Of a stretch of DNA of 64,000 bases, positions 16,528-20,152 are shown piece after piece. Under the pieces are notes generated by a model. It had not been told where the DNA came from, ran no database searches, and saw only the letters and a program-made list of their open reading frames with translations. The translations under genes were made by a program, and so were the position numbers. Numbering within the stretch: position 1 is the stretch's first letter; every line of letters starts with the position of its first letter. This stretch comes from Candidatus Saccharimonadota bacterium (GTDB lineage: Bacteria > Patescibacteriota > Saccharimonadia > Saccharimonadales > Saccharimonadaceae), in assembly GCA_009783305.1 (NCBI GenBank), contig WRHJ01000003.1, forward strand, positions 1-64,000, given 5' to 3'.

Positions 16528-16614
16528 GTTTGAATTTTAGATTTTGTGCTTGCTATGGTTATTTTGCTTGTGCTAAAATCGGTGCAAGTGTGGGCAACCG
16601 AAGGGAGGTGCCAA

Positions 16615-17793
16615 GTGCAAAACAAAAACTTAAATACTAAGTATATTTTTGTGACCGGAGGTGTGATCTCTGGTGTGGGGAAGGGGACGTTGGCCGCGAG
16701 TATCGGCGCGATTATCAAGGCGAAAGGCCTGAAGGTGTCGATCCAAAAATGTGACCCGTATTTTAATGTGGATGCGGGGATGATAGATCCGAGGGAACAT
16801 GGCGAGTGTTTCGTGACGGCGGATGGGGCGAAGACGGATTTGGACCTGGGACATTATGAGAGATTTCTGGATATGGAGTTGACGGGTGATTGCACTCTGA
16901 CTTCTGGGAAATTGTACAAGATGTTGATAGACGACGAGCGGGCGGGGAAGTTTGAAGGTAAGACAGTGCAGATGGTGCCGCATGTGACCGGGTTGATTCA
17001 GCAGAGTTTTCTCCTAAACGCGAAGAATTTTAAGAGTGATGTACATATTGTGGAAGTGGGGGGGACAGTGGGGGATTTGGAACAATCGCATTTTATTGAG
17101 GCGATACGAGAATTTCCGGCGAAAGTGGGGAGGGAGAATTGCTTTTATGTGCATGTAGTTTTTGTGCCGTATTTGTCGATTGGAAGGGAATTTAAGACAA
17201 AGCCAGCGCAAAATGCACTGCGGGATTTGCGCGAATTTGGCATTATACCGGATATGGTGGCGGCGCGGGTGGATATGGAAAGAATCACAGGAACGGGGAT
17301 GATACCGAAGAAATTGGCGACTTTTTGCGGGGTGGGCGAAGAGTGTGTAGTGGTGATGCCAAATGTGCGGAGTGTGTATGAAGTACCATTAAATGCTGTG
17401 AAAGGCGGGATGTTGGGACCGCTGGATAAATTTGTGGATCACGGTGATCCGGATATGAGTGATTGGGAGGAGTTGGTGGAGCGAATTCAACGGAAGCCAT
17501 CGCAGATTTTGCGAATTAGGATAATAGGGAAATACGTGGAAAATCCGGATGCTTATTTATCGGTAGTGGAGGCACTGAAGGCAGCGGGGTGGGCGCTGGG
17601 AGTTGGAATTGAGATAGTATGGAGCAGTGAGGATAAAGAAGAGGTGGATGGGGTTGTGATAGCGGATGGGAAATGGATTTATGACGGGAAAGCACCTGAC
17701 TTGAGGTTGGAAGGGAAGGGGCATCCAGAGTTCAGGAGTCGGCCGATGCGGCCACATCCGGTATTTGAGGAATTTATTAAGGGCATAAAATGA
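16615..17793 (+). CDS. pyrG: CTP synthase with internally deleted glutaminase domain
   Basis: CTP synthase aminates UTP to CTP. I start at GTG 16615 because AGGGAGGTG lies just upstream. The synthetase domain is intact: YIFVTGGVISGVGKGTLAAS, KCDPYFNVDAGMIDPREHGE, DLDLGHYERFLD, VEVGGTVGDLEQ. The C-terminal glutaminase domain, normally over 200 residues, is reduced to about 95: it starts normally (IGKYVENPDAYLSVVEALK), lacks the nucleophile-elbow Cys motif (GICLGMQ in E. coli), then resumes at the family's last block, HPEFRSRPMRPHPVFEEF. Total is 393 residues against about 540. Such an enzyme should use free ammonia rather than glutamine. A candidate -10 (TAAAAT) lies near 16575. Confidence 0.9.
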   Translation: MQNKNLNTKYIFVTGGVISGVGKGTLAASIGAIIKAKGLKVSIQKCDPYFNVDAGMIDPREHGECFVTADGAKTDLDLGHYERFLDMELTGDCTLTSGKLYKMLIDDERAGKFEGKTVQMVPHVTGLIQQSFLLNAKNFKSDVHIVEVGGTVGDLEQSHFIEAIREFPAKVGRENCFYVHVVFVPYLSIGREFKTKPAQNALRDLREFGIIPDMVAARVDMERITGTGMIPKKLATFCGVGEECVVVMPNVRSVYEVPLNAVKGGMLGPLDKFVDHGDPDMSDWEELVERIQRKPSQILRIRIIGKYVENPDAYLSVVEALKAAGWALGVGIEIVWSSEDKEEVDGVVIADGKWIYDGKAPDLRLEGKGHPEFRSRPMRPHPVFEEFIKGIK

Positions 17794-17805
17794 TATGAAA
17801 TTAAA

Positions 17806-17830
17806 AAGGCCCCTCAGATGAGGGGCCTTT
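17806..17830. terminator. Bidirectional terminator after pyrG
   Basis: AAGGCCCCTC (17806-17815) pairs perfectly with GAGGGGCCTT (17820-17829) around AGAT. The T-tract is stronger on the minus strand, so it also serves the convergent 17919 gene. Confidence 0.85.
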
Positions 17831-17918: not shown

Positions 17919-18278
17919 TTATGTCCGCGCAAAGACAGCCGGTCGACGGTGCCTCTGGCGGTTGTTAGTAGTTTCGCGTCGAGCAGATCTTGAATTGGGT
18001 GAAGCAGGCTGAGAGCCCTTTGATTTTTTGGACTCTGTGGGGCTGAAGTCAAGTACAACTGGAAGCTGCATAATGCCGATGAAAGCGTTGAGCTTTCTGT
18101 CGGTTTCGATGTCGCGCCCGTGACCGTATCTTGTGAACCAGTCTTCAAGCTGGCTTTGGATGCGATCGAGCTTCGGCGTGTCGGCATTGCCGGCGTTGCG
18201 TTCGCGGGCGATCTTGCCTCGTGTTTCTTGGAGCTTCAGGGCTTGCTCAAGCTTTTTCTGGATAGACGGATTGTTCAT
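17919..18278 (-). CDS. Orphan basic protein, 119 aa
   Basis: I do not recognise this protein. The N-terminal half is helical and charged (NNPSIQKKLEQALKLQETRG, then KIARERN); the C-terminal tail is Arg/Ser-rich and probably disordered. I chose the ATG at 18278 because GGAAGGAGAAG lies upstream of it on the minus strand; an earlier in-frame start is possible. TATAAT and a perfect 10-bp palindrome precede the gene, suggesting a repressor-controlled or autoregulated unit. It is monocistronic and ends at a terminator. The basic tail suggests nucleic-acid binding (inference). Confidence 0.65.
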   Translation of the reverse strand: MNNPSIQKKLEQALKLQETRGKIARERNAGNADTPKLDRIQSQLEDWFTRYGHGRDIETDRKLNAFIGIMQLPVVLDFSPTESKKSKGSQPASPNSRSARRETTNNRQRHRRPAVFART

Positions 18279-18312
18279 GCGTGTAATCTTCTCCTTCCGA
18301 AATAAATTAAAG

Positions 18313-18336
18313 ATCATTACCATTTGTGGTAATGAT
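18313..18336. promoter_or_regulatory. Perfect palindrome, candidate operator
   Basis: ATCATTACCA (18313-18322) and TGGTAATGAT (18327-18336) form 10-bp perfect arms with a TTTG spacer. A minus-strand TATAAT overlaps the outer edge at about 18336-18341, so the palindrome sits around the start of the leftward transcript of the 18278 gene. It could be a protein-binding operator or a 5'-end mRNA hairpin. Confidence 0.55.
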
Positions 18337-18415
18337 TATATTTTATCACGAATTGCAGAAAAAAGAAAGGGACAGCTGTGGAGTTTTGAGGATAATTATT
18401 GTATTATTAAGGGTA

Positions 18416-20152
18416 ATGGAAGACATTAGAAAACAGATTGAGATGGTGGTGAAAGACTTGTTTGGGGTAGATGTTCAGGTGGTATTGTCGGTGGTGCCGG
18501 AGGGGGTGGAAGGGGATTATGCCTGTAACGTGGCAATGCAGTTGGCGAAGCAAGTGGGGAAGCCACCGCGAGAGATAGCAGAGGAAATCATTAGCGGGCT
18601 TTCTCGGAAACAGACGGGGTCACTCCTGTCGTCACAGGGTGACGCCCTTTCTTCATCGCAAGTGTCGTCACACTTTGCGAACGTTCCTCAAAAGCCTATT
18701 AATGATTTCTCTGTTTCCGTAGCAGGGGCGGGTTTTCTCAATTTTACGCTGAGTGATGAGATGCTGAGAGGGGAGCTGGAGGGGTTTGAAGTGGGAGGGG
18801 CGAGCGAAAAATATGCTGGGAAAGTGGTTGTAACTGAGTTTAGTGATCCGAATCCGTTTAAGGTGTTACACGTGGGACATTTATATACTTCGATTGTGGG
18901 TGATGGCTTGTCGCGATTGATAGAGTATGCGGGCGGCGAGGTGCACCGGACGAATTTTGGCGGGGACGTGGGGCTGCATGTGGCGAAGACAATATATGAG
19001 ATTTTGCGTCGGGGGGACTTGGAGAGTTTTGATGCAAAAAGTGTGGGTGAAAAAATGGAATATATCGCGGAGTGTTATGTGGCAGGGACTAGGGCGTACG
19101 AAGGTGATGATGAAGCGGTGCGGAGTGAGATTTATGATTTGAATAAAAAAATTTATGAAATTGCAGAAAAAAATGAACGCGACGGTGATGCGGCAAAAAT
19201 ATATTGGGCGGGGCGGGAAGCAAGCTATGAATATTTTGATGGATTTTATGAGCGAATTGGCCTTCAATTTGAGAAATATTATCCGGAATCAACAGTGGCG
19301 GAATTGGGCCTTAAGACTGTACGTGAGCATGTAGGGGAAGTGTACGAGGAGAGTGATGGAGCGGTGATATATCGGGGCGAAAAGGGAGGATTACATACGC
19401 GGGTTTTTATAAATAAAGAAGGTCTGCCGACGTACGAAGCAAAGGACGTGGGGCTGATTGAACAAAAATGGCGGGACTATGAATTTGACGAATCGATTGT
19501 AATTACGGCGGCTGAACAAAAAGATTATATGAAAGTGGTTTTGGCGAGTGTGGCGGAATTTGCACCACAGTTGGTGGAACGGACGCGGCATCTGACGCAT
19601 GGGATGGTGAAGTTGCCGGGTGCGGTAAAAATGAGTTCAAGGAAAGGTAATTTCTTGAGAGCGGTGGACGTGATAGATATGGTGGAAGGAGAAGGAGTAG
19701 AAAGCGTGGTGGCACTGGGGGCAATCAAGTATGCGTTTTTGAAAGTGAAGATGGAAGGAGATATTGCGTTTGATGCCAAGGAATCGGTGAATATGCAGGG
19801 GAATTCGGGACCGTATTTGCAATATGCATTGGTAAGGGCGAAATCGATTTTGCGGCAGGAAGCGGGGGAGTTGAAGGAGGAGACGGGGGAGTTAGGCGTG
19901 TGGGAGCGCAGATTGCTGTTGAAGATATTGGATTGGCGAGGAGCGATGGTTGAGGCGGTGGAAGAATTGGCGCCGCATAAGGTATGTTTGTATTTATATG
20001 AATTAGCGCAAGAATTCTCGAGATTTTATGAAAATAATAAGGTAGTGGATGGTGAAAATGAAGCGTTGCGCAGGAGATTGGTGGGTCAATATGCAGAGGT
20101 GTTGGCGGCAGGGTTGAACCTGCTGGGGATTGAGGCGCCGGAGAAAATGTAA
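18416..20152 (+). CDS. argS: Arginyl-tRNA synthetase
   Basis: ArgRS charges tRNA-Arg with arginine in the cytosol. The 578-residue class I enzyme has the N-terminal additional domain, the HIGH-like motif VLHVGHLYTS, the KMSKS-like KMSSRKGN and the C-terminal anticodon-binding helix bundle ending in NLLGIEAPEKM. The ATG at 18416 follows TATTAT by eight bases and has no Shine-Dalgarno. Residues about 64-95 (from KQTGSLLSSQGDALSSSQ) are an extra, Ser/Gln-rich segment encoded by pyrimidine-rich DNA with two hairpins, unlike the G-rich rest; it looks like an in-frame insertion in the N-terminal domain. Confidence 0.96.
   Translation: MEDIRKQIEMVVKDLFGVDVQVVLSVVPEGVEGDYACNVAMQLAKQVGKPPREIAEEIISGLSRKQTGSLLSSQGDALSSSQVSSHFANVPQKPINDFSVSVAGAGFLNFTLSDEMLRGELEGFEVGGASEKYAGKVVVTEFSDPNPFKVLHVGHLYTSIVGDGLSRLIEYAGGEVHRTNFGGDVGLHVAKTIYEILRRGDLESFDAKSVGEKMEYIAECYVAGTRAYEGDDEAVRSEIYDLNKKIYEIAEKNERDGDAAKIYWAGREASYEYFDGFYERIGLQFEKYYPESTVAELGLKTVREHVGEVYEESDGAVIYRGEKGGLHTRVFINKEGLPTYEAKDVGLIEQKWRDYEFDESIVITAAEQKDYMKVVLASVAEFAPQLVERTRHLTHGMVKLPGAVKMSSRKGNFLRAVDVIDMVEGEGVESVVALGAIKYAFLKVKMEGDIAFDAKESVNMQGNSGPYLQYALVRAKSILRQEAGELKEETGELGVWERRLLLKILDWRGAMVEAVEELAPHKVCLYLYELAQEFSRFYENNKVVDGENEALRRRLVGQYAEVLAAGLNLLGIEAPEKM
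18615..18680 (+). repeat. Tandem hairpin element inserted in frame in argS
   Basis: Two adjacent palindromes with the same CGTC loop: hairpin 1 spans about 18619-18643 (outer GGG/CCC extend it to 18616-18647) and hairpin 2 has arms TCGCAAGTGT (18656-18665) and ACACTTTGCGA (18670-18680). Both have TGT-CGTC-ACA at the tip. The strand composition differs from the flanking argS sequence and the frame is kept. Confidence 0.6.

Follow-up and report, generated by a model that had tools for sequence, protein, structure and literature searches.

Introduction

CTP synthase (CTPS, PyrG) is a textbook two-domain amidotransferase. In the reaction, ATP activates UTP and ammonia, made from glutamine by the glutaminase (GATase) domain, travels through a tunnel; exogenous ammonia can also be used directly (PMC9138612). 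In about 800 genomes surveyed, every pyrG (100%) carried its glutaminase in fusion (PMC3376133, Table 1), and the same survey found NadE without a glutaminase in 44% of the genomes (PMC3376133). Because of this complete fusion, and because searches of the open-access literature (preprints were outside the search) found no description of a natural glutaminase-less CTPS, we take the pyrG gene reported here to be a new form of a known enzyme. It lies in a stretch of 64,000 nucleotides, hereafter the window, at the start of contig WRHJ01000003.1 of a Candidatus Saccharimonadota bacterium (GCA_009783305.1), whose genome (788 kb in 7 contigs) is 98.5% complete. Like type N NadE, the single-domain NAD synthetase (PMC3376133), the window CTPS is an amidoligase without a glutaminase that would use free ammonia; NadE differs in its unrelated fold and pathway, and in NadE the single-domain state is common.

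A pyrG gene with a complete synthase domain

The gene and the elements around it are as follows:

16602..16608, + strand: Shine–Dalgarno-like AGGGAGG just 5' of the pyrG GTG (from the sequence)
16615..17793, + strand: pyrG, CTP synthase without a working glutaminase domain, 392 aa (open reading frame, profile and homology searches)
16636..17406, + strand: complete amidoligase (synthase) domain, residues 8–264 (Pfam and alignment)
17805..17830, + strand: terminator-like hairpin GGCCCCTC-AGAT-GAGGGGCC with a short U tail (folding)

The frame runs from a GTG at 16615 to a stop at 17791–17793 with no internal stop, so that the intact frame claimed from the letters alone holds for all 392 residues. 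The terminator proposed in the same sequence-only reading is upheld in part: the hairpin that follows the stop is strong (−21.1 kcal/mol, z −3.2), yet it ends in a short run of U. No Rfam family matched at the locus.

By both its domain and its catalytic residues, the protein belongs to the CTP synthases (UTP:ammonia ligases, PF06418). The Pfam CTP_synth_N domain is full (residues 9–264, E 8e-98, 327.4 bits against a cut-off of 26.1), and the equivalents of K18, K40, D72, H118, E140, K187, K189 and K223 are identical, and those of D147 and E149 and of the tunnel-gate residues P54 and H57 are retained. Position 60 is a Cys, as it is in 66 of 73 relatives. Altogether, 96 of the 102 near-invariant synthase positions are kept. 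The protein passes the cut-off of the general NCBIfam CTP synthase model, NF003792, and reaches 396.8 bits with TIGR00337, the model for the glutamine hydrolyzing CTP synthase, which is under the cut-off of 462.75.

The order pyrG-argS-mscL-like-orn-dnaG is common to the window and its congeners, and the locus is thus orthologous. The ArgRS encoded in the conserved slot by pyrG (18326–20152, + strand) is itself unusual, with about 29% identity to the ArgRS of the same slot in congeners and 55% to that of genome L105, that is, a different ArgRS type; the window argS is perhaps a xenologous replacement. The interval from pyrG to argS holds a 134-aa open reading frame that runs the other way (17919–18323, − strand) and has no Pfam match; it is preceded by a strong inverted repeat (18312–18337).

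What remains of the GATase domain

In an alignment with E. coli PyrG and 75 relatives, the following parts can be told apart past the synthase domain:

17503..17670, + strand: what is left of the start of the GATase domain, a fast-evolving beta-alpha-beta-beta unit, residues 297–352 (alignment and model)
17671..17718, + strand: unalignable linker, residues 353–368, pLDDT <50, replacing about 140 GATase residues (alignment and model)
17719..17790, + strand: C-terminal tail of the GATase domain, HPEFRSRPMRPHPVFEEFIKGIK, with H370 and E372 equivalent to E. coli H515 and E517 (alignment)

In order, the protein keeps the linker, beta1-alpha1-beta2, VDGVVIADG, some 15 unalignable residues and then HPEFRSRPMRPHPVFEEF. 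Counted from E. coli position 282 on, it has 103 residues against 243 in the intact L064 protein, so that 140 are missing, in agreement with the loss of about 140–150 central residues, Cys nucleophile included, that had been proposed from the sequence; the first strand-helix and the last block, said to be kept, both aligned. The GGFG.RG motif of the oxyanion/lid loop is absent, as are the nucleophile elbow (G-[LI]-C-L-G, with Cys379), E403, ERHRHR[YF]E and the parts of the GATase domain that bind GTP. The window CTPS thus shares with the glutamine-hydrolysing enzymes (PF06418 plus PF00117; TIGR00337) the synthase domain, the catalytic and tunnel-gate residues, the gene position, the linker and both ends of the GATase domain, but lacks the residues that carry the Cys, the oxyanion/lid loop and the RHRHR loop. 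It has no Cys-His-Glu triad of the class-I GATase that goes with TIGR00337, and, with neither the Cys nor the oxyanion loop present, the His and Glu left in the tail are not a functional remnant. With the Pfam GATase profile only a sub-threshold trace is seen (profile positions 4–51 of 190, 16.9 bits against a cut-off of 22.8).

The AlphaFold model of the protein (pLDDT 84, pTM 0.87) has a CTPS-like fold, with TMq 0.81–0.87 to CTP synthases in the PDB, and the matches of the structure search are CTP synthases. The synthase domain is normal, followed by a beta-alpha-beta-beta unit (298–349) and a C-terminal helix, and only the junction (352–368) is disordered. Likewise, PDB CTP synthases match the protein at residues 8–341 and then at 368–389 (HPEF.SRPMRP.P.F). 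The leftover unit and helix probably persist as a small packing module.

Glutaminases elsewhere in the genome

The window genome holds a single PF06418 gene. A profile search for class-I GATases (PF00117) found no match anywhere in the genome, and hence no split or relocated GATase gene and no separate partner of this class; most relatives have exactly one PF00117 domain, located in PyrG. GatA, the amidase of the Gln-tRNA pathway, is encoded, so amide metabolism has not been lost altogether. The presence of GatA means that glutamine or asparagine is hydrolysed in the cell, and another amidase or glutaminase might feed the truncated enzyme in trans. We regard this as extremely unlikely, since the genome has no class-I GATase of any kind, a second lineage with a glutaminase-dead CTPS (genus g42, below) is without one too, and the lid and oxyanion parts for docking are missing from the window CTPS. 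No Amt transporter was found in the window genome or in 30 relatives (31 genomes tested).

CTPS length in the genus and family

A CTPS match was found in 42 of the 45 genomes of the genus. As measured by open frame, and with contig-end fragments such as that of G022 set aside, the other congener proteins have 504–619 residues, and the 392 of the window protein compare with 535–560 in nearly all of them. The short form is unique in the genus among the species compared. The sequence-only reading had named full-length genes in close relatives, with the deletion in this assembly alone, as the sign of an assembly error, and full-length genes are indeed what the genus holds.

In a family sample of 149 genomes, 126 of them with a CTPS (part of the fragments was inspected), the short frames left unexplained by contig ends or runs of N were those of the window and of G342, in genus g42. 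Three other short proteins were set aside: in G332 (454 aa) the assembly gives N for 33 residues, in G424 (314 aa) the gene runs off the contig, and in G447 the gene is about 460 bases from a contig end and is probably also a fragment. The CTPS of L096 (Hm464_bin174), which extends to a contig end, is enlarged by long insertions both in the linker and in the GATase region.

One congener CTPS (L087, L026 and L058; UBA4387 = G024, 504 aa) has an in-frame loss of 37 GATase residues that include the Cys. Because the ends of the deletion are microhomologous (CGCGGCGT-like) and the rest of the GATase domain is intact, this may be a recent deletion or an assembly artefact, and a third loss of the glutaminase is possible.

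Divergence of the GATase remnant

Could the middle of a full-length pyrG have been dropped in assembly? The window genome is a metagenome-type assembly with no conspecific, congeners with complete genes all carry a nearly complete GATase domain, and the clean 37-residue loss in UBA4387, between CGCGGCGT microhomologies, is a possible parallel. A dropped segment, however, would leave parts that resemble those of relatives, and the GATase remnant does not. In the block equivalent to E. coli 288–331, the window protein is 46% identical to its congeners, against an average of 68% for intact pairs of equal synthase distance (n = 221) and 73.5% for L064 and congeners. The dN of the residual GATase block is 0.36–0.45 for the window against 0.17–0.23 for L064, whereas synthase dN to congeners is about 0.17–0.18 and 0.15–0.16, respectively, with synonymous change near-saturated. 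Relaxed constraint is thus confined to the GATase part. The strictly conserved columns taken alone are no more than suggestive of the same trend (10 of 13 kept in the GATase part and 96 of 102 in the synthase; Fisher p 0.06).

The junction points the same way. Its approximately 15 residues match no part of the CTPS family, and its two sides are not just conserved ends joined together. The breakpoint carries no direct repeat of at least 10 nt, and a repeat-mediated collapse was rejected on this ground. The deletion is in frame, the flanking GATase blocks are far more diverged than in any intact relative, and the same function has been lost independently elsewhere, in genus g42. We therefore consider an assembly error very unlikely, in spite of the full-length genes of the congeners.

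Independent loss of the glutaminase in genus g42

Genus g42 holds two further CTPSs of interest, that of L106 (Th196P3bin118; the same protein as in G461), with 468 residues, and that of G342 (= L123), with 466. In these proteins GVGACL or SVGNPL stands at the Cys elbow (Cys to Gly or Asn), SPE or NPE replaces HPE, and ERARNS or ERARSS replaces ERHRHR; no lid is left, and some 40 residues that follow the nucleophile elbow are missing. The two loci are syntenic: upstream of each lies an LTA-synthase-like gene, and downstream one that resembles a phosphotransacetylase gene (named by eye from the sequence). Neither the L106/G461 genomes nor that of G342 has a PF00117 match, while in the g42 sisters G234 and G468 the GATase domain is intact.

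In the tree, g42 is monophyletic with full support, G342 and L106 are sisters (97/95), and the window protein adjoins its own genus. Forcing the window, L106 and G342 together costs 143 log-likelihood units, and a single shared ancestral loss is rejected by the AU test (p-AU 1.6e-7). The loss in g42 is thus phylogenetically independent of that in the window. L106 and G342 share 79% amino acid identity in the synthase domain, at saturated synonymous sites, and 53% in the dead GATase domain. This pattern indicates strong purifying selection on the synthase, and suggests that a glutaminase-less CTPS has been kept working for long in g42. The g42 proteins resemble that of the window in the lost glutaminase function, the selection on the synthase and the absence of any other class-I GATase, but differ in that the GATase fold is largely retained (468 aa, pLDDT 90) with dead motifs, whereas most of the domain has been excised in the window.

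These observations also bear on whether the window gene is a decaying pseudogene, with CTP coming from salvage or from the host cell while pyrG is being lost. PF06418 went undetected in 59 of the 393 genomes of the order (about 15%), including the near-complete G100, G126 and G164; CTP synthesis thus appears sometimes dispensable in these epibionts, and genomes without pyrG must obtain their CTP by salvage or from the host cell. Since some members of the group do without pyrG, the window gene might be in the course of being lost, and the branch of the window synthase is somewhat long (0.33 against 0.02–0.18 in neighbours). Against decay, the known catalytic residues and nearly all near-invariant positions are intact, stops and frameshifts are absent, the ribosome-binding site and hairpin are in place, and g42 offers a parallel of long-term purifying selection on a GATase-dead CTPS. 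We find decay improbable; an assembly error or a dead gene, taken together, is unlikely.

Discussion

The features of the window gene make it highly probable that it is a functional, orthologous pyrG of a host-associated Saccharibacterium, from whose middle the GATase domain was lost, leaving a UTP:ammonia ligase. That this is a real gene working with ammonia only, as first proposed from the sequence, is the best-supported reading; from the missing nucleophile and the known use of ammonia by CTPS (PMC9138612), we infer that the enzyme would use ammonia alone. The organism most likely needs free ammonia to make CTP. Natural, obligately ammonia-dependent CTPSs have probably arisen at least twice in Saccharibacteria, through excision of the core in the window and through decay by point mutation in g42.

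In the mechanism that we propose for the functional ligase, the enzyme would phosphorylate UTP at O4 with ATP, and free ammonia would then aminate the intermediate directly. With the GATase domain no longer there to cap the tunnel, ammonia would diffuse to the synthase site, and, as no Amt transporter was found, it would also enter the cell by diffusion. The source could be ammonia-rich surroundings, either the gut or, as Saccharibacteria live attached to other bacteria, the host cell; relatives of gut origin suggest such a habitat. The enzyme would have lost the glutaminolysis that GTP activates, while feedback by CTP might still act on the synthase domain. Activity with ammonia may be poor, since much of the domain normally packed against the entrance of the tunnel is lost.

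If this is true, free ammonia scavenged from the gut or host cell has taken the place of glutamine in the central step to CTP, and a synthase-only CTPS under selection would mean that the enzyme can do without its glutaminase half when ammonia is in ample supply. The window CTPS would be a ready-made minimal enzyme for the study of ammonia entry, GTP regulation and CTP feedback without a GATase domain, and would be a concrete sign, open to testing, that an epibiont with a reduced genome depends on ammonia.
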